Assembly (NCBI GenBank): GCA_005116965.1
Contig: SWDG01000006.1
Coordinates: 825,176 to 889,175 of the forward strand
Source of the DNA: Nitrospira sp.
Lineage (GTDB): Bacteria > Nitrospirota > Nitrospiria > Nitrospirales > Nitrospiraceae
Length of the DNA: 64,000 bases
Direction of reading: 5' to 3'
Shown in pieces: positions 28,431 through 38,889 of this stretch; position 1 is the first letter of the stretch; each line of letters begins with the position of its first letter. Below the pieces are notes generated by a model. That model saw only the letters and a program-made list of their open reading frames with translations. It was not told the DNA's origin and made no database searches. The position numbers were made by a program, and so were the translations under genes.

Positions 28431-29825
28431 ATGATGTCTGGTGGTTCCATGAAGCAACGGATATACGGCCTCGAGAACGAATACGGCCTCATTTTTTCCC
28501 CCAACGGTCGTATCTACCTTCCCATGGAAAAAGTCCTGGGGTACATCTTTGAAGGACTGATTCCCAACAGCTGGCCGTCGAACGCATTCTTGGTCAACGG
28601 GGCGCGATTCTATCAAGACACCGGCTGTCATCCCGAATATTCAACTCCAGAGTGCGACAACATCCTGGACCTCGTGATCCACGATAAAGCGGGGGAGCGA
28701 TTGTTGGAGGCCTGTTTGCCGGCTGCTGAAGAACGGCTCCGAGAGGAAGGGTTGTCCGGGGAAATCTATATTTTCAAGAATAATACGGATTCTCTTGGGA
28801 ATACCTACGGATGCCACGAGAATTTCCTCATGCGGCGCGATGTCGATTTTTGGAAAGTCACCGAACAATTGATTCCGTTTTTCGTGACCCGACAGGTGTT
28901 CAGCGGGGCGGGCAAAGTATTAAAAGTATCCGGCAAGCCGCAGTATTTCATCTCTCAGCGCGCGCAACATATTCATGAGAAGACGTCTTCGTCGACGACC
29001 TCTTCTCGGAGCATCATCAACACCCGCGACGAGCCCCATTCAGATGCCGAACGCTATCGGCGCCTCCATATCATCGTCGGCGATTCCAACATGTCGGAGT
29101 ACGCGACGTACCTCAAAGTGGGGACTGCTGCGCTTGTCTTGTCGATGATCGAAGACGGGTACACGGTTCATGGGTTGGAACTCGAAGATCCTGTCAAGGC
29201 GATTCGAGAGGTCTCGCGTGATCCGACCCTGAAGAAAAGGGTCAAGCTCGATGACGGTCGGCAGATGACCGCCATCGAGATTCAGCAGGTCTATCTCAAG
29301 CGGGCGAGAGAGTACCTGAATCAACAGGCGCATGAGGCTATCTTGGATGATGTGTACGATAAGTGGGAACGGATGCTCCAGCAGCTGGAGGAAGATCCGA
29401 TGCAACTCATCCATCAGGTCGATTGGGTCACGAAGAAACATCTGATCCAGTCTTACGTAGACAAGAAAAATTGCGGGTGGGACGACCCGAGGGTGCTCCT
29501 TATGGATTTACAGTTCCATGACGTGAAGCGAACAAGAGGGTTGTATTACCTGATGGAGTCTCGAGGGCTTATCGAACGGGTCGTCGAAGAGGAGGCGGTC
29601 CAGCGGGCGATGTCCACACCTCCACAGACGACAAGGGCCAAGGTTCGTGGAGATTTTATTCGGTTTGCACGGGCCAAGAATCGATCCTATACCGTCGATT
29701 GGACCTATCTGAAGCTGAACGGGTATTGGGAGGAAACGATTCTGTGTATGGACCCCTTCAGCGCGGTGAATCGACGGGTCGAGGAGCTGATTTCCCAGGT
29801 GTCCGGAGGACGGTTTTACCGATGA
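28431..29825 (+). CDS. pafA: Pup--protein ligase PafA
   Basis: IYGLENEYGLIFSPNGR, GCHPEYSTPECDN, FKNNTDSLGNTYGCHENFLMRR; start may be 28449. Confidence 0.95.
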   Translation: MMSGGSMKQRIYGLENEYGLIFSPNGRIYLPMEKVLGYIFEGLIPNSWPSNAFLVNGARFYQDTGCHPEYSTPECDNILDLVIHDKAGERLLEACLPAAEERLREEGLSGEIYIFKNNTDSLGNTYGCHENFLMRRDVDFWKVTEQLIPFFVTRQVFSGAGKVLKVSGKPQYFISQRAQHIHEKTSSSTTSSRSIINTRDEPHSDAERYRRLHIIVGDSNMSEYATYLKVGTAALVLSMIEDGYTVHGLELEDPVKAIREVSRDPTLKKRVKLDDGRQMTAIEIQQVYLKRAREYLNQQAHEAILDDVYDKWERMLQQLEEDPMQLIHQVDWVTKKHLIQSYVDKKNCGWDDPRVLLMDLQFHDVKRTRGLYYLMESRGLIERVVEEEAVQRAMSTPPQTTRAKVRGDFIRFARAKNRSYTVDWTYLKLNGYWEETILCMDPFSAVNRRVEELISQVSGGRFYR

Positions 29826-29958: not shown

Positions 29959-30576
29959 GTGCTGGTCCAGAAAGAAAAATTCCATGTTGAGCATCTCACG
30001 CTGCCGAAAGACAAAGTCGATTTAGACGACAAGGCAGTGGCACGTTGGAAAGCCGAACAGGAGCAGGTGAAGACGGCACTGGCCACGGACTCTCAGGCCA
30101 AGTTGTGGCAACCGGGTTTTGTGGAACCGGTGAACGGCAGACGAACCGGGATCTTCGGCAGTGTCAGAATCATGAATGGGCAGCCACGGAATCCGCACAA
30201 TGGTGAAGACATCAGTGCGCCGCTCGGAGCGGATGTGTTGGCGACGAATGATGGCATTGTACGGCTCACTGTCGAGCATTTCTTCTCTGGGAAAGGCATC
30301 TTTGTCGACCACGGACTCGGCTTTTATTCGATGTACTTTCATCTATCCGAAGTCCTGGTCAAAGACGGAGAACCGGTGAAAGCCGGGCAAATTGTCGGAA
30401 AAGTTGGAGCAACCGGCCGGGCCACAGGTCCGCATCTCCACTGGGGCGTGAAACTCAATGGCGCGCGCGTGAATCCCTATGCCTTGCTGGATCTGCCGTT
30501 CAAGAGCGGGGAACAATCGGTGGTTCCAGTCTCAATTTCTGATCCTGGCTCCATGGTTGGTGCGCCAACGCCCTAG
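29959..30576 (+). CDS. M23-family metallopeptidase, apparently N-terminally truncated
   Basis: FGSVRIMNGQPRNPHNGEDISAPLGADVLATNDG, VDHGLGFYSMYFHLSEV, GATGRATGPHLHWGVKLNGARVNPYALL; no signal peptide and an in-frame TAG upstream of homologous-looking residues. Confidence 0.85.
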   Translation: MLVQKEKFHVEHLTLPKDKVDLDDKAVARWKAEQEQVKTALATDSQAKLWQPGFVEPVNGRRTGIFGSVRIMNGQPRNPHNGEDISAPLGADVLATNDGIVRLTVEHFFSGKGIFVDHGLGFYSMYFHLSEVLVKDGEPVKAGQIVGKVGATGRATGPHLHWGVKLNGARVNPYALLDLPFKSGEQSVVPVSISDPGSMVGAPTP

Positions 30577-30649: not shown

Positions 30650-30943
30650 TTGCTGCGACTTAGGCCTGAGGCATTCCGCATGAGAACCTTCTTGTTCCTC
30701 TGCTCAGCGCTCTCTCTGCTACTCTCCGCGCACAAGTTTTCACTTGCCGAGCCTAGCGGGCAGTACAAGGGAGCCTTATTCTTTCTTTTGATGGGCATCC
30801 AGCTGCTCATCACTGGGGCACTCATTTCTGAGCATCAAGAAAGCCAAACACCTAAATCACCGCCGTCGGCAGGGAAGAAGGATGACAAAGAAGCTGGGGT
30901 AAGTAGGGTGAACGCTTCGAAGGAACAGGAGAAGGAGTCTTGA
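30650..30943 (+). CDS. Small membrane hypothetical protein
   Basis: Two hydrophobic segments and charged tail; may start at internal ATG (MRTFLFLCSALSLLL). Confidence 0.4.
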   Translation: MLRLRPEAFRMRTFLFLCSALSLLLSAHKFSLAEPSGQYKGALFFLLMGIQLLITGALISEHQESQTPKSPPSAGKKDDKEAGVSRVNASKEQEKES

Positions 30944-31143
30944 AGGAAGTGGTGTGTAAGACTAGAGCAGCTAGATGCTCCATCAGCTCTACGCCGGCTA
31001 ACTCACCCTCATTGTGCTCTCCAAAGCACCAGGGGCAAAAACCCTCGTAAATTCAAAAAAAGAGTCAGTATATTTCTCAATGGGTTAGACTTATCCTACG
31101 GCGGGTTCAAAAACAAGTGCTTTTGGTGATGAGAGCTTAGTAG

Positions 31144-32220
31144 ATGCTACCGAAACAGAATAGCGGCAGTCCTGATGAGGACAAGGAGCCTGACTCATCA
31201 AGCCCGCTTCATGACTTTTCACAGGTTCAGCGACAAGCTGAGGAAACCCTTCGGCGCTTCGCATATCTGATAAGTCCTACGCAGATTCACCTCGATGAAA
31301 AACACCGTCATATCGAGGAAACCTTTAAACGCCTTACCGTTCCGGCTGATCCAATTCGAAAGGCCATAATTGGGTATACAGAACACTATCGCAACATCGA
31401 ACAAGTCTGGACGAACAATCTATCGCGCCTTGCTGTTCAACAACGCCAAATCGAAGAAACGTTCAAACTATTGCAAGATCCAGCTGGTCCTATCGCATTA
31501 ACCTTTCGTCGATACACGAAAGAAGAAAATAGGGCGAGGGATTTTTTCAGTTCCGTACTTGCTCGCATTCCAGCAGATAGTTCTCTAGGCACTATTGCGG
31601 CAGCATCGTTAAAGGTCAATGTAATCTTAAGCGATATCAGCAATGTGCCCCTTGAAGTTACGCCTGACACCCAGATACCACTAGCTAAGAATTCGCTGCC
31701 GATTCAAGATGTCGCAGTTCGAATCGACGAGTTCATTTCGAATAGCCAGACCCTTTCCCAACTAACAAAGGGACAGCACAAATTAAGCGATGCTATAGAT
31801 TCAATTTCTGATGAGATTAAAAAGCAGAACTCTCCAATCCAAATTATCCTATTCCAGGTACTACTTGCTGTCCTGGTTGGCTATTTCATTAACCTTACGA
31901 CCCCCTCTGTCGATGAAGCCATCCATCGACAACTCAAAAAGAAAGAGATCGTAAAAAAATTACAGACAGAGGCTAACTCGCTAGGATTACAGGGCAAGGA
32001 TCTTCAGAGTCTTCGTGTGGTCATGGCAAGTTCTCTAAGGGCCCGAGAGACTCCAAGCAGAAGGTCCAAAACCATCGGAATTCTTTACCAAGGGCAAGTG
32101 GTAAAGCAAGTGACAAAGGGACGCGATTGGACACTCGTTGAGTTTTTGGATGGCGACACCACTCATAGAGGCTGGGCTTTCACTAGATACTTAATGCGTA
32201 TTGAGCTCAATTCTAGATAA
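31144..32220 (+). CDS. Hypothetical protein with one TM segment and C-terminal SH3-like domain
   Basis: IQIILFQVLLAVLVGYFINL (TM); SLRARETPSRRSKTIGILYQGQVVKQVTKGRDWTLVEF (bacterial SH3-like). Confidence 0.6.
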   Translation: MLPKQNSGSPDEDKEPDSSSPLHDFSQVQRQAEETLRRFAYLISPTQIHLDEKHRHIEETFKRLTVPADPIRKAIIGYTEHYRNIEQVWTNNLSRLAVQQRQIEETFKLLQDPAGPIALTFRRYTKEENRARDFFSSVLARIPADSSLGTIAAASLKVNVILSDISNVPLEVTPDTQIPLAKNSLPIQDVAVRIDEFISNSQTLSQLTKGQHKLSDAIDSISDEIKKQNSPIQIILFQVLLAVLVGYFINLTTPSVDEAIHRQLKKKEIVKKLQTEANSLGLQGKDLQSLRVVMASSLRARETPSRRSKTIGILYQGQVVKQVTKGRDWTLVEFLDGDTTHRGWAFTRYLMRIELNSR

Positions 32221-32358
32221 CGATGCTCTTATTCCTAGGCAGCGCCAGAAATAGTTGTTTTTGGATCATCTCAACAGTCGGCTTATGGCATCGAAAGATC
32301 AGCATGTTACCTCTCTCAGCCACGGGGTTTATGACGGGAAGGGTCAACAGGTGCCCCA

Positions 32359-33378
32359 GTGAATACTCCACATGACAAGCGGCGACCAATCGACAAATTA
32401 AGGGATGGAGCAGGCTCGTTCGAGATAAGAACGCCTGATGATGACAGCGCAATATCGGAGATTATTTCGACTGGCGACCGGCTGTTCGTCGTCAAAGGCA
32501 AGGGCGTCTACGAGGTCAAGCTCGCCGACGATGTAGATCCCAAGAGAACGAATATCAATGCGCCTAACACGATTCAAAAAGTTCTTTCCTACGGAGCGGA
32601 TGATCCTTGGATAGGCGCAGTTTTGTTGACAGGGCATCATCTACTTTTAAGCTCCTGTTCTCCGAGCAATGTTGACGGCAATTCAGCGTTCGGCCTAATG
32701 CTCAAAATTGCTGAGGAAATCGCGGGAGCCCACCAATTAGTGGGGAAATACCACGAGGCGGAAGGTGCAGCAACAAAGTCACTTGACCCAAAGATTCGAA
32801 AAGACCGCACCGTTGTTGTACCAGCCATCGGGAGTGTCGAATCAAGATGCAACGAGTTCCTACTGAGATCAGACCATGCGTTCCGAGAACTATTCAGGCT
32901 CGTCAAGATGTTCTATTCGGATGTCGGTTCTGGTGGGTGGGAAGGGCTAAAGAAGAAGATCGATGGAGGGTCGCGGGACATTGATAATTTCCCACAGTTC
33001 TTAGCTGAGACGGTTCCGTTCCTACAACTAATTCGCAATGCTCGGAATTGTGTTGAGCATCCAAGGCCAGAGCAAAGACTGGTCGTCGAAGATTTCAGCC
33101 TAGATCCAATGAATGTCGTACTCCCACCTATAGTCGAGATCATCCACCCAAGAACACCACTCAGTAGGGTGCCTATGAGTACGTTCTTTACCAAGACTCT
33201 CCAGCAAATCGTGCGCGTTGTGGAACTAATGGTGGTTTTTCTCTGCAACAGACATGTGATGTCGCCTGGAGGCTTTCCCGTCCAAGTAATCGAGTTCCCG
33301 CCAGAGCACCGAAAATCTGCACATGTCCGGTACGGATACGATACGGTAATTGGAGACCAAATCGTCCCAATGTCGTAG
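32359..33378 (+). CDS. Hypothetical protein with HEPN-like RNxxxH motif
   Basis: LIRNARNCVEHPRPEQR within a predicted helical region. Confidence 0.5.
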   Translation: MNTPHDKRRPIDKLRDGAGSFEIRTPDDDSAISEIISTGDRLFVVKGKGVYEVKLADDVDPKRTNINAPNTIQKVLSYGADDPWIGAVLLTGHHLLLSSCSPSNVDGNSAFGLMLKIAEEIAGAHQLVGKYHEAEGAATKSLDPKIRKDRTVVVPAIGSVESRCNEFLLRSDHAFRELFRLVKMFYSDVGSGGWEGLKKKIDGGSRDIDNFPQFLAETVPFLQLIRNARNCVEHPRPEQRLVVEDFSLDPMNVVLPPIVEIIHPRTPLSRVPMSTFFTKTLQQIVRVVELMVVFLCNRHVMSPGGFPVQVIEFPPEHRKSAHVRYGYDTVIGDQIVPMS

Positions 33379-33528
33379 CTTGAAGTTGGTGAGCATGAAA
33401 AGTCTAGAAGTGTTCGGTAAGATACACAACAATCGATTGCAGTGCACGCGCCTCACGCACCGAACCGGGGCTGCAGTCCACTCTGCGTTGGCCGCTGAAG
33501 CAAGACGTTAGATGGGGGAGAAGAGAAA

Positions 33529-34110
33529 ATGGATGCCTTTGAGGCTGTCGTCGCTGCAATACTTCAGCGACAGGGCTACTGGACTTTAACAAGCGTCAAG
33601 GTTGAGCTGACTAAAGAAGAGAAGCGCGCTATTGACCGTCACTCCTCGCCCCGATGGGAACTTGACGTCGTGGCGTATCGAGGGAAAGACAACGAAGTTC
33701 GCGTTGTCGAATGCAAATCCTTCCTAGACTCACCCGGAGTTGATTGCAGCGCATTTGACGGATCGAATAAAAAGGCAGAAAAACGATACAAGCTATTCTG
33801 TGAAGACACGCTTCGGAAGGTCGTATTCCGGCGGCTTGAGCAGCAGCTGGTCTCGGGTGGCTTCTGTGCAAAGAACCCGACCATTCGCCTTTGCCTAGCG
33901 GCTGGTAGGATTCGTGGGGACGAAAGCTGGTTGCAGACGCACTTCAAAAAGAAAGGGTGGCTTCTTCTTGGCCCGGAATGCATACGGCAAGAGCTGAAGA
34001 AACTTCGAGACGTTGGCTATGAGAACAGCGTAGCGGCAGTTGTCACAAAGCTGATAATGCGGGAGGGTAAGCCAGTACGAAATGAAGCGGGTATAGATGC
34101 CGATGTCTAA
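33529..34110 (+). CDS. Restriction-endonuclease-like (PD-(D/E)XK/Mrr-type) protein
   Basis: AFEAVVAAILQRQGYWT ... WELDVVAYRGKDNEVRVVECKSF matches a D-(x)n-ExK core. Confidence 0.6.
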   Translation: MDAFEAVVAAILQRQGYWTLTSVKVELTKEEKRAIDRHSSPRWELDVVAYRGKDNEVRVVECKSFLDSPGVDCSAFDGSNKKAEKRYKLFCEDTLRKVVFRRLEQQLVSGGFCAKNPTIRLCLAAGRIRGDESWLQTHFKKKGWLLLGPECIRQELKKLRDVGYENSVAAVVTKLIMREGKPVRNEAGIDADV

Positions 34111-34320
34111 CAACAAGTTCACCGCGCGCCGCCGCTTGGTGATCGAATAACATGACAATTGTGCTCATTTTGTGCTCAAGCCTACCTCACTCCATCCCAC
34201 TCAGGCCTATTCCAGCCAAAACCGCGGGTCGTATGGGTTTGTCCTCGTAGCATCGGGTCTTTAGGATATAGTTCGGATGGTTTGAAAAAGCCGATGGCAA
34301 TCAAGATTCTTGCGGCTCTC

Positions 34321-34470
34321 TCAATACACAATGGCCGGGCGCTTGCCCTTGATGATCAGCAGCAGCCGCTTAAATTGTAATGGCTTGTCGGGATCACGTG
34401 TATAGTGGCTGGGATCGTCTGAGATCTTGAGGTCCTGAAGGGGATCGACAGTTTCTGTCCGATGTGGGGA
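34321..34470 (-). pseudogene. C-terminal fragment of a paralog of ORF 35428..35796
   Basis: Minus-strand DDPSHYTRDPDKPLQFKRLLLIIKGKRPAIVY* vs intact EDPSHYTRDPDMPLQFKRLLLLVKGKRPGIVY*, with a 1-nt deletion upstream. Confidence 0.85.
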
Positions 34471-34618
34471 CGGCGGGGCACCGCAATCGGTTTCCAAGGA
34501 GTTTCATCGCCTCAGCTTCCAGTCTGCACGCCATCTATTGGGCAGTCCATTGTGCCTCCTCATGATGACCGTGTTGGGTTTTGTACAATCGAGCGTGACG
34601 TGCTATGAATGACACGTC

Positions 34619-35380
34619 ATGAAAGAGCTCCTGACCGCTATCGCCACAAAGAAAATGCAACTCGACGCGTTGCGTCCTATCTCACACGCGGCGTTGCGGG
34701 CTCTACAGAAATCTTATGATGTGGACTTGACCTATACGTCCAACGCCATTGAAGGCAACACGCTGACCTTGCGAGAGACGGCGGAGCTGATCGAGCATGG
34801 GATTACCGTTGGGGGAAAACCCTTGCGCGATCATCTTGAAGCAGTCGACCACTACGAGGCCGTCTTATGGATGCGTGAGCTCGCGGCTAAGACGACACCG
34901 ATTACTGAACACACAGTGTGCGAGTTGCATCGACGTATTGTGTCTCGCAGTCAGCCTGAGATCGGCGGGATGTACAGTACCCTTCCCCGGCGTATTGCTG
35001 GTTCCCCAGTTGTCTTTCCGAACGCGGTGAAAATTCACGAGCTGATGCGGACCTATGGCGAATGGATTTCGCAGGCGGCATCTGAACCGGCAACCAGCTT
35101 TGATGCCCATTACCGGCTTGTTGCCATTCACCCGTTTTCGGATGGCAACGGACGTACGGCCAGGCTTGTGATGAATGTCTTGCTCCTGCGTGGAGGGTAT
35201 CCACCAGTTGCGGTACGACCGGAAGACCGAAAAGCCTACCTCGACGCACTTGAGCACGCGTCGATGAGGGAAGATCTGACGCTCTTTCAGACTTTCATGC
35301 ACCAGAGACTGGACGCGACCCTAGTAGAGTATCTGAACGCCTTGCAAGAGCCACGGCCTCCGGGAAGCGAAGCGATCTGA
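34619..35380 (+). CDS. Fic family protein
   Basis: YTSNAIEGNTLTLRETAELIEHG (inhibitory-helix-like [S/T]xxxE[G/N]) and catalytic HPFSDGNGRTARL. Confidence 0.95.
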   Translation: MKELLTAIATKKMQLDALRPISHAALRALQKSYDVDLTYTSNAIEGNTLTLRETAELIEHGITVGGKPLRDHLEAVDHYEAVLWMRELAAKTTPITEHTVCELHRRIVSRSQPEIGGMYSTLPRRIAGSPVVFPNAVKIHELMRTYGEWISQAASEPATSFDAHYRLVAIHPFSDGNGRTARLVMNVLLLRGGYPPVAVRPEDRKAYLDALEHASMREDLTLFQTFMHQRLDATLVEYLNALQEPRPPGSEAI

Positions 35381-35427
35381 GCCTCGTGATAGTCAGTAGG
35401 ATATTGGGAAAGTCCTCCAGCTCTCTC

Positions 35428-35796
35428 TCAATACACAATCCCCGGACGTTTGCCTTTGACGAGCAACAGCAGCCGTTTAAATTGTAACGGCATGTCCGGA
35501 TCGCGCGTGTAGTGGCTGGGATCTTCTGCGATCTCGATCTCACTGAGCGGGATCGACAGTTTCTGCCGGAGGTGAGGCACGGTGGTTTCTAACGCCACAT
35601 CCACTAACTGCTCGGTGCAGGCGATCACCTCGCTGTTGATATCGCGTTGATCGTCGAACTGCACAGTGATCCGTTCTTCAGGGTTGATCCATGGTGTGAT
35701 GAGGGCCAGCTTATCTGCACGACTCATGGGGGAAGGATTGTCCATCACGGGGCCATTAGTTTTATGTCGTGACTCGGGATAGCTCAGCAGCTTCAA
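35428..35796 (-). CDS. Hypothetical protein (intact paralog of the 34321-34470 fragment)
   Basis: 122-aa ORF with homologous remnant about 1.1 kb away. Confidence 0.6.
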   Translation of the reverse strand: MKLLSYPESRHKTNGPVMDNPSPMSRADKLALITPWINPEERITVQFDDQRDINSEVIACTEQLVDVALETTVPHLRQKLSIPLSEIEIAEDPSHYTRDPDMPLQFKRLLLLVKGKRPGIVY

Positions 35797-36012: not shown

Positions 36013-36711
36013 ATGATGCGTCAACTACGTCTGATTTGCCTCATGTTCCTATTTGCATCGATGAATGCCTGTATAATTGCGAATTACCAAATAACTGCTC
36101 AAGAGTCTTCTGAGAAAAGGGCTATTGGGGGTTCGAAGGGTGACGAGGCTCTGCAAGTTGTGATTCCCGGGTACCACATCTTTGAAACGCGTTGTCGCAG
36201 TGGTAGAGGAGGAGGGGGATGGATAGGTCTGATTGGCGGTATTGTAGCCAGGTCTTGTGAAGAGTCCCGCGATTTTATCGGGACTCAGATGTATGATGGT
36301 GTGTCAGTGGCCCTCAGTGACATGCCGTTGGGAAGGCCCGTTGAGTTTATTGCGCACATTCGGTCACAAGGATTGGTGTGCGTCGTCACTGTGAATAAGC
36401 AAATCAACGACGATATTTCCTACAGTGAGCTTCTCAGTCTGGCGACCTTGCTCACCATTCCTGCTTACACGACGCACAAGTATGTTCTTAGTTATTCTGT
36501 ACTCTTTGATTTTAAAACGGTTAAGGAGTACGAGTACCACATTACAGAGAAAGCCATTTTTGGCTGGGGTGCATGGCTACTGTTTCCTGTAATGTATCCG
36601 TTTTGGGACGAGATCAAGTTCAACGTAACTGAGTATGGACCGCGCGCCAGTGTCGTTAGAGAAACTACGAAGAGGTTTCTGCGTGAGGCTCATCGAGATG
36701 GGATTTTGTAG
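36013..36711 (+). CDS. Putative lipoprotein
   Basis: MMRQLRLICLMFLFASMNAC signal and lipobox-like Cys. Confidence 0.55.
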   Translation: MMRQLRLICLMFLFASMNACIIANYQITAQESSEKRAIGGSKGDEALQVVIPGYHIFETRCRSGRGGGGWIGLIGGIVARSCEESRDFIGTQMYDGVSVALSDMPLGRPVEFIAHIRSQGLVCVVTVNKQINDDISYSELLSLATLLTIPAYTTHKYVLSYSVLFDFKTVKEYEYHITEKAIFGWGAWLLFPVMYPFWDEIKFNVTEYGPRASVVRETTKRFLREAHRDGIL

Positions 36712-36769: not shown

Positions 36770-37144
36770 TTAGTTCGCCGAGCTGCCCAATCCTCCCATC
36801 AACGGCATCAAGCTATCCTCGCTTGGCCCTTTGCCCTGCTTTGACGCCTCGCTGATTTCCGACAACAACCCATCTGCTACTGGATTCAGTTGTTTTAACT
36901 TCTCGGCTAATTTGCCAGACAGCATGCCGTTCTGAACATCCTCCTCCGTGAGTTTTCCCTCTTTGAGGCCCTGTTGAAGGATCTGTGCTAAGGAGCGCAC
37001 CTTTGCCAGGACGTCGGGGGGCATGCCGTTCAGGAGACTGGCTGCGTCCGGTTGGCCACTCCCAAGTTGGGCATAGGCTGGCATGGTCAACGAAAGCAAA
37101 AGCCCACAGAGAACGATCATCAGTTTTCCGGTCAAACCCATCAT
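36770..37144 (-). CDS. Secreted hypothetical protein
   Basis: MMGLTGKLMIVLCGLLLSLTMPAYAQ signal peptide; GGAGG upstream of this start. Confidence 0.6.
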   Translation of the reverse strand: MMGLTGKLMIVLCGLLLSLTMPAYAQLGSGQPDAASLLNGMPPDVLAKVRSLAQILQQGLKEGKLTEEDVQNGMLSGKLAEKLKQLNPVADGLLSEISEASKQGKGPSEDSLMPLMGGLGSSAN

Positions 37145-37470
37145 AGCCTCCTCTGTGTTGACCCTCTGAATCAAGTCTCACATCAACTCGATTCACTGCA
37201 GGATGCCTGCCAGCTTCGGTGGAAGGAGAAAAGATGTTGTCGTGCAAAGGTAGAGGAGGAAGAACTTCACAATGTCAGGCAGCACTGACCTCTATGTATT
37301 GAGAAAATGGAGAACTTCGCTAACCACTTGTCTATGCATGACATTCTCGATCATCTGAAATTGATAGTGGATGGGAGCCCTGATGTTCGGATGTGCGAAG
37401 GAGAGGGAGTGGACGAAACAGTGTACTCGGTCTGCGGGATTGTTCAAAAATGGGACTTGGCGTGGATTAT

Positions 37471-38889
37471 TCAGTAATTAGATTCGAGGCTGGTCGGTGT
37501 CTTATTAAGGACGGTTGCGGCAGCTTGCGAGAGAGCGGCGTCGTGATGGTGGTCGGGAGAATAGATTCGAAACTGGATGAGTCGCGTGGGCAGCAGGTCT
37601 AAGCATTCCTCCAGCGGCTCGGTTGAAACCTGCCCCGTCCCGGGATCGTATACGTAGAGAGGATTACCCCGGTGGTCTTTGGGGTCCGGTCGTGGATCCA
37701 ACAGGGCCATGTCCACGCGAAACGGCAGCCGTCTCAAACTGGACGGCAGCTCTTTCGAAATTTGCTGCTCAAAATGCCGATGGCTGGGAAACGCCATGCC
37801 GCGTTCCTGTCCTTTTTCTTTCAACGTCGTGCTGTAGGCCATTTTCCATTTGATGTCTCGGCCTAAGATCCGTGCCCACTCCTGTCCCAACTGCCGGCGG
37901 GCTTTGTGGCGGGACTGTGCCCATCCTCGGACTTCTTCCAACAGCGACCAATCGGTCAGGGTGCGATACCGATCCATATTCTTACGCGGATCCTTGGGGC
38001 AGAGCAGTTGCATCGTCTGGCCGAAGATGTCCCGCAGATGGATGTCGATTGCTCTGGTAGTGCGATGGAAGTAGACGTTGGAGTAGAGGTACATCCTGGT
38101 GTTCAGGAACATTTGGAGGGACGGAAGTCCTGTCTTATGAATGGTGAACCCTTTCTCCGTCACGATGGTGTAATGAATCAACCGTGTCAGATCGACCGGA
38201 CCAACCGCCACGCCACACATATACGAGTCCCTCAAGACATAGTCCAGATTGTCTCCGGTGTAACTCCCTGAGATCACGGGCTGGAGCATGTTCAACCATC
38301 GAGGGAGGCGGGAGTTGTCCTTGCCTTTTTCCTTGAGGATCAGATGAGCGATTTGGTCGGGATTCAGTTCTTCTCCTTTCGCGAAGGGGCCGGACGGGCT
38401 TCGGCGGATTTTCTTGATGAGGGGGGCTAAATGTTCTCGGATGATGATCTGGCCCAGCCGCTCATGGGTGAGGCCATGGGCATGGAGAAAATTGTCGTCG
38501 AAGAAATGGCAAAACGGTCCGTGCCCGATGTCGTGGACCAAGGCCGTGACACGGAGGAACTCTTCGACGAAATTGGAAGAAGGCACATCCTTCACGACTT
38601 TCTTGAGAAACGGGTACAGGTGTCGAGCAAACCGTCCTGCGACGTGCATCGTCCCGAGTGAATGCACGAACCGGGTATGTTCCGCAGAGGGATAGACCCA
38701 GCGAGCACTTTGCAGCTGGTAGATGTATCGCAGCCGCTGAACCCAGGGGGAGTCGATCAGGTCTTTCTCGGTGTGCTCATGCGGATCAGGATGAGCATAG
38801 GGGACGGTGAAGGTGACGTACTTGTGGATGGGATCAGCGATGAGCGCCGAGCCATCATAGGGAGCGTTCGGTCGGTCTTCTGATTCCAT
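37471..38889 (-). CDS. HD-domain phosphohydrolase
   Basis: VQRLRYIYQLQSARWVYPSAEHTRFVHSLGTMHVA; VTALVHDIGHGPFCHFFDD. Confidence 0.92.
   Translation of the reverse strand: MESEDRPNAPYDGSALIADPIHKYVTFTVPYAHPDPHEHTEKDLIDSPWVQRLRYIYQLQSARWVYPSAEHTRFVHSLGTMHVAGRFARHLYPFLKKVVKDVPSSNFVEEFLRVTALVHDIGHGPFCHFFDDNFLHAHGLTHERLGQIIIREHLAPLIKKIRRSPSGPFAKGEELNPDQIAHLILKEKGKDNSRLPRWLNMLQPVISGSYTGDNLDYVLRDSYMCGVAVGPVDLTRLIHYTIVTEKGFTIHKTGLPSLQMFLNTRMYLYSNVYFHRTTRAIDIHLRDIFGQTMQLLCPKDPRKNMDRYRTLTDWSLLEEVRGWAQSRHKARRQLGQEWARILGRDIKWKMAYSTTLKEKGQERGMAFPSHRHFEQQISKELPSSLRRLPFRVDMALLDPRPDPKDHRGNPLYVYDPGTGQVSTEPLEECLDLLPTRLIQFRIYSPDHHHDAALSQAAATVLNKTPTSLESNY

Follow-up and report, generated by a model that had tools for sequence, protein, structure and literature searches.

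A pafA-linked insertion hotspot with duplicated anchor-gene fragments in a Nitrospira genome

Some chromosomal hotspots that lack mobility genes are described as growing by double recombination at the core genes that flank them (Oliveira et al. 2017, PMC5635113). Here, we analyzed a 64,000-nucleotide stretch of DNA (the window) from the Nitrospira sp. assembly GCA_005116965.1 (contig SWDG01000006.1, positions 825,176 to 889,175 of the forward strand), in which an earlier note had proposed that four consecutive plus-strand genes downstream from pafA, coding for a membrane SH3-like protein (open reading frame 1 [ORF1]), a HEPN-like protein (ORF2), a nuclease-like protein (ORF3), and a Fic protein, form a candidate defense/toxin island. 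All four ORFs are present as claimed (Table 1). The island should be understood as an insertion hotspot that contains duplicated anchor-gene fragments and extends from 30944 to ~35800, and its content is general variable cargo rather than a dedicated defense island. We consider it likely that this region represents cargo at a hypervariable locus of the chromosome, where independent single-gene units, some of them probably anti-phage, are stacked without forming a functional operon.

Genomes of the same genus share the left-hand order pafA-M23-small ORF and the right-hand order o36770-HD-DUF2062-thiL-lon and differ in the gene content in between, the combination of constant core flanks and changing content by which hotspots of horizontal gene transfer (HGT) are recognized. 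Among the 40 same-genus relatives with both flanks on one contig, the anchor-to-anchor interval ranged from 7 bp to 9.0 kb, with >1 kb of cargo in 22 and ≤~130 bp in 14 (manual count). Most of these near-empty relatives are more distant, and therefore the hotspot seems to be a trait of the clade to which the window belongs. Loss of cargo is also possible, since in G051 (locus L037), whose pafA is 99% identical, the interval is only 132 bp, 66 bp of which are left over from the anchor gene o35428. Nearly half of the ORFs found in the intervals and at their edges were singletons (111/251). Cargo named by Pfam included a histidine kinase with a response regulator (G047), an acyltransferase-SGNH protein (G016), and a multiheme cytochrome (G042), among others, while G049 carried amoC, ftsH (M41), and a short-chain dehydrogenase gene, plus Abi_C. 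The first three of these clusters recur in G039 and G011, and this module thus occupies the pafA hotspot of three relatives (L036 in G049, L052 in G039, and L084 in G011). As for amoC itself, there are six genes in G081 and one in the genome studied here, a count that by itself suggests that the latter may belong to a complete ammonia oxidizer. We found no paper on this hotspot in the literature.

A second feature of the locus is a pair of repeats at 34316-34474 and 35423-35577 (core, 34316-34430 versus 35423-35537, at 84%), which correspond to the 3' end of o35428, the conserved ~105-codon gene at the right border. A profile of this gene found one to three copies per hotspot, always in the same orientation, and most of the short copies ended near model positions 140 to 190. 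In the 21 genomes searched, good matches were confined to this hotspot, so the copies are not a genome-wide miniature inverted-repeat transposable element. Overall, o35428 is a conserved gene tied to the hotspot, with copies in ~25 of them, and its 3' end has been repeatedly duplicated between cargo modules. Two copies flank Fic in the window as well as in G060 and G011 (in G011, the right end of the hotspot, found on another contig, reads Fic, then HD, thiL, and lon), and G049 has a second copy of the left small ORF (the counterpart of 30650) as well. The o35428 fragment duplications mark module boundaries.

A different, dispersed intergenic repeat, ~165 bp when complete (TTGTGCTCATTTTGTGCTCAAGCC...GCTTTCCTAAACCGCGGGTC), is represented between ORF3 and Fic by a truncated copy. 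There is another copy in this genome (G000:C25:123122-123182) and five in G081, two of them inside this hotspot (repeat loci L182-L187). An integron-like array was discarded by eye, as RYYYAAC/GTTRRRY boxes are not conserved across all copies. Neither this repeat nor the o35428 fragment had been reported in the earlier note. A tRNA-linked island was likewise ruled out, there being no tRNA gene within the window or near the repeats.

Composition also separates the four genes. GC content dropped to 44.7% over 1 kb at ORF1, against 55% over the whole window, and GC at third codon positions (GC3) was 0.44 in ORF1, 0.52 in ORF2, 0.54 in ORF3, and 0.61 in Fic, with 0.60 to 0.67 in the flanking core genes; hence, no single composition is common to the four. 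The suggestion that the region is more AT rich than its flanks thus holds for ORF1 (GC, 0.45) and partly for ORF2 and ORF3 but not for Fic. A promoter and terminator scan gave signals no higher than in shuffled sequences.

We propose that, within one clade of the genus, single-gene units of foreign origin would enter between two fixed anchors, with pafA, M23, and the small ORF on the left and o35428, o36770, HD, and lon on the right. The simplest route would be homologous recombination at these anchors, which would leave 3' fragments of o35428 as duplicates between the modules. The duplications found here fit the double recombination at flanking core genes described for other hotspots (PMC5635113). 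The window would then hold at least four separate arrivals, i.e., ORF1, ORF2, ORF3, and the o35428'-Fic module, and each cargo gene most likely works alone. Some points weigh against this scenario. We infer the insertion event itself, which was never directly observed; the cargo contains a dispersed repeat; the location of all four ORFs on one strand could hint at cotranscription, although successive genes are 138, 150, and 508 bp apart; and site-specific insertion at the o35428 3' end, with the integrase provided in trans, would likewise agree with the partial copies of this gene.

Table 1. Features of the pafA hotspot in the window (positions within the 64,000-nucleotide stretch)
Feature	Position	Strand	Description
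pafA	28431-29825	+	Left core anchor; syntenic in all relatives examined
M23 peptidase gene	29959-30576		Left anchor, further gene (Pfam)
Small ORF	30650-30943		Left anchor, further gene
Variable cargo	30944-35422		Begins after the small-ORF stop codon (30943) and reaches the 3' end of o35428; variable in nearly every relative
ORF1	31144-32220	+	358 aa; N-terminal helical region, single transmembrane stretch (~residues 233-250), C-terminal bacterial SH3
ORF2 transfer unit	32332-33511	+	1182 bp; 81% DNA identity to G428/L205; similarity ends before ORF1 and ORF3
ORF2	32359-33378	+	GTG start, 339 aa; HEPN-like, RNxxEH motif (R229, N230, H234)
ORF3	33529-34110	+	193 aa; predicted stand-alone PD-(D/E)XK nuclease (E5, E44, D46, E61, K63)
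Dispersed repeat	34158-34220		Truncated copy
Duplicated 3'-terminal fragment of o35428	34316-34474	-	Found by repeat search and nhmmer
Fic gene	34619-35380	+	253 aa; HPFSDGNGRTAR motif; inhibitory-type motif SNAIEGN on the N-terminal side
o35428	35428-35796	-	Anchor gene, ~105 conserved aa; right cargo boundary; kept at the hotspot of most cargo-bearing relatives
Lipoprotein-like gene	36013-36711	+	Between o35428 and o36770; weak match to LIC12231 family
Right core anchor	36770-38889	-	o36770 (36770-37174) and HD hydrolase gene (37471-38889); then DUF2062, thiL, and lon

No DNA match to the lipoprotein-like gene was found in the hotspots of the relatives.

ORF1 to ORF3 might alternatively have arrived together and be what is left of one mobile element (a prophage, integrative element, or satellite) that no longer has its recombinase. 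Relatives of these genes do adjoin integrases on a Rhizobium plasmid, on proviral contigs, in prophage contig L133, and in G368, and both the truncated dispersed repeat and the low GC of ORF1 and ORF2 would agree with such an origin. However, the cargo of the window has no recombinase, the three genes differ in their relatives and in GC3 and never share a locus elsewhere, and ORF2 occurs without the others, all of which make a single element improbable. We retain the stacking of separate units as the preferred explanation, and the individual genes are considered below.

Two of the three enzyme assignments, those of ORF3 and Fic, are firm. In ORF3, the nuclease-like motif pointed out by the earlier note (ELDVVAY...VVECKS) is present, and an alignment of 26 sequences showed that F4, E5, G16, W18, R42, E44, D46, E61, and K63 are kept, with the catalytic positions D46, E61, and K63 invariant. 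The structure model (predicted local distance difference test [pLDDT], 89.7; predicted template modeling score [pTM], 0.84) agrees, having an alpha-beta core whose best match by Foldseek was AF1548 (1y88; E value, 6e-5), along with VC1899, Upx, Cdn1, MspJI, MunI, and SduA; profile comparison with Card1 gave an E value of 8.6e-5. Both the core fold and the catalytic D...(D/E)xK arrangement of the PD-(D/E)XK superfamily are therefore found in the model, and ORF3 is most likely a metal-dependent DNA endonuclease. No Pfam, NCBIfam, or PHROGs family reached the cutoff with this protein. Its relatives, recognizable by the signature GYW / SSPRWELD / ECKSYLDS / YKLF, were located at 27 loci in genome contigs (Pseudomonadota, Acidobacteria, Planctomycetota, and Armatimonadetes, among others), at 10 loci in viral contigs by an alignment-based search of IMG/VR (the single protein gave no match there, and the alignment was needed), and on one Rhizobium plasmid; the phage collection gave no match. 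Neighboring genes are not the same at the different loci (VWA, beta-lactamase, RNase J, gyrB, ThiF, and methylase). In proviral contigs L123, L124, L125, and L126, the ORF3 relative lies just 3' of a ParB/DNA-methyltransferase gene, in L128 and L129 just 3' of a ParB-like gene, and in L100 a methylase gene is found 14 bp upstream, whereas most cellular loci, including the window, have no adjoining methyltransferase or ParB-like gene.

A free-standing nuclease that is patchily distributed over many phyla, among unrelated neighbors and also in proviral contigs, could be a selfish homing-like endonuclease that spreads into variable loci instead of a defense enzyme. We find this unlikely, as the loci have no common insertion site or target gene, the nearest solved structures are mostly restriction or defense nucleases, and a restriction-like role fits better with the position directly 3' of DNA methyltransferase/ParB-like genes in several proviral contigs and of the methylase in L100. 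ORF3 probably restricts foreign DNA (phage or plasmid), and a stand-alone anti-phage role is plausible for it and possibly for ORF2. More tentatively, ORF3 might found an undescribed minimal family of stand-alone restriction-like nucleases, spread over many phyla and proviruses and, in the latter, often just 3' of ParB/DNA-methyltransferase genes, and at the same time the pafA hotspot might grow by specific insertion at the 3' end of o35428, leaving gene-end copies of ~175 bp; we regard this combined proposal as possible but doubtful.

For ORF2, the HEPN assignment was borne out at the level of the motif and left unproven at that of the fold. The RNCVEH sequence is present and agrees with the R-phi-x3-H (Rx4-6H) pattern of HEPN proteins, and few features are as well conserved as RNxxEH across nine diverse relatives (N230 and H234 in 9/9 and R229 in 8/9, with S for R in L119). 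On the other hand, ORF2 had no Pfam match, no member of the family gave a profile match above the curated cutoff (only one relative, L121, had a weak HEPN_Apea match over the motif region, with an E value of 0.019 and 15.8 bits, below the cutoff of 24.4), and the AlphaFold2 model, built from only two sequences, had a pLDDT of 39.7. ORF2 is probably a HEPN-type RNase that would use R229 and H234. In the 79 genus genomes first searched, the only match was ORF2 itself, and a wider profile search found the family in 12 of 270 genomes of the class. The nearest relative belongs to another family (G428) and is 75% identical at the protein level; as the limits of the DNA similarity indicate (Table 1), ORF2 travels as a single-gene unit, and its cross-family transfer is fairly recent. 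Neither the scan of viral contigs with the single protein nor the phage collection gave matches, although one viral locus was found with an alignment-based search.

Several relatives of ORF2 have distinctive surroundings. In prophage contig L133 (3632-7122), one has an integrase gene on one side and a DUF4238 gene on the other. Another two, in G178 and G368, adjoin a 336-aa gene (L120 4486-5496 and L207 7097-8107, respectively), with which they possibly form a two-gene unit, and tyrosine recombinase genes are found nearby in G368. In addition, proteins of ~650 to 660 aa with an ORF2-like C-terminal part are encoded in G039 (L122 4757-6742) and G312 (L209 4741-6690), the former with an N-terminal region that weakly matches DUF6602.

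The identification of the Fic gene was straightforward (Pfam Fic; E value, 1.6e-16), as its active motif, HPFSDGNGRTAR, follows the HPFx[D/E]GN[G/K]R consensus. On the N-terminal side, SNAIEGN follows the inhibitory (S/T)xxxE(G/N) pattern and aligns with AIEGNT of FICD, the best solved relative, ahead of BtFic and CdFic. No antitoxin-like small ORF of the kind expected for class I was found directly upstream, where the gap holds the dispersed repeat and the anchor fragment. A toxin-antitoxin pair was thus ruled out, and the internal motif indicates a self-regulated (class II) Fic protein and not a toxin awaiting its antitoxin. Judging from these motifs, it is most likely an AMP-transferase that its N-terminal glutamate keeps inactive. 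Fic was found in three more genomes of the genus, always at this hotspot and without ORF1 to ORF3 (G011 and G060, at ~89%, and G039, where the gene is broken). ORF1, in which the expected SH3-like domain (SH3_3; E value, 4.4e-6) and transmembrane stretch were both recovered, is most likely a membrane protein with an SH3b domain. Among 77 genus genomes, it matched only itself and one weak partial sequence, and plasmid matches covered only the transmembrane and SH3 part.

The earlier note had left joint action of the four genes undecided and had named a lack of co-occurrence as an argument against the island. None of ORF1, ORF2, and Fic was found in the ORF3 loci (27 genome and 10 viral), none of ORF1, ORF3, and Fic in the ORF2 loci, and no pair among the four co-occurs at any other locus examined. 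This, together with the mixed cargo of sister genomes and a self-inhibited Fic lacking an antitoxin gene, argues against a defense/toxin island as a unit, while leaving individual defense roles possible. Nor did PADLOC reveal the clustering of recognized defense systems that characterizes a defense island, since ORF1 and ORF2 had no match, ORF3 reached only E values of 0.01 to 0.02, and Fic matched only candidate models PDC-S04 (E value, 1.4e-27) and a SoFic model. A coherent anti-phage system in which a membrane SH3 sensor, a HEPN RNase, a nuclease, and Fic act jointly, which the adjacency of the genes on one strand, the frequency of their domains in defense, and the PDC-S04 match might recommend, is largely refuted by the missing co-occurrence and thus very improbable, all the more so given the wide intergenic gaps, the movement of ORF2 as a single-gene unit, and the duplicated anchor fragment that separates ORF3 from Fic.

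A vague defense island is in this way resolved into single genes open to test, i.e., a compact and highly conserved nuclease family without a name in Pfam, NCBIfam, or PHROGs but with relatives in several phyla and in proviruses, and a solitary HEPN-like gene that crossed between families fairly recently. With both flanks available in ~40 genomes, the hotspot also provides natural replicates for following, step by step, how nitrifying bacteria gain and lose cargo, and ammonia oxidation genes (amoC with ftsH) are among the cargo that lands there.

Compared with described proteins, ORF3 has the fold and the E..D..ExK active site of AF1548 (1y88), Card1/VC1899, Upx, SduA (Shedu), and Mrr/McrC-like restriction enzymes, although it consists of the nuclease domain alone (~190 aa), without the CARF, N-terminal Shedu, ATPase, or methyl-binding parts of those enzymes. 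The ORF2 family (~340 aa) shares an R-N-x-x-E-H type motif with Apea-like HEPN proteins (PF18739) but has its own N-terminal region and a match below the curated cutoff. Fic has the active motif of FICD/HYPE, BtFic, and CdFic, in which an N-terminal glutamate is inhibitory, and its SNAIEGN resembles AIEGN of FICD; it differs in being a bacterial single-domain protein of 253 aa without a TPR or membrane part. The locus as a whole resembles known chromosomal HGT hotspots (PMC5635113) in its fixed core flanks, its cargo that differs per genome, the absence of an integrase from the cargo of the window, and the small size of the units, and it differs from them in that 3' fragments of o35428, plus a second small ORF in G049, mark the module boundaries. 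The type of locus is known, and the new details are the family of solo nucleases and the duplications of the anchor gene.

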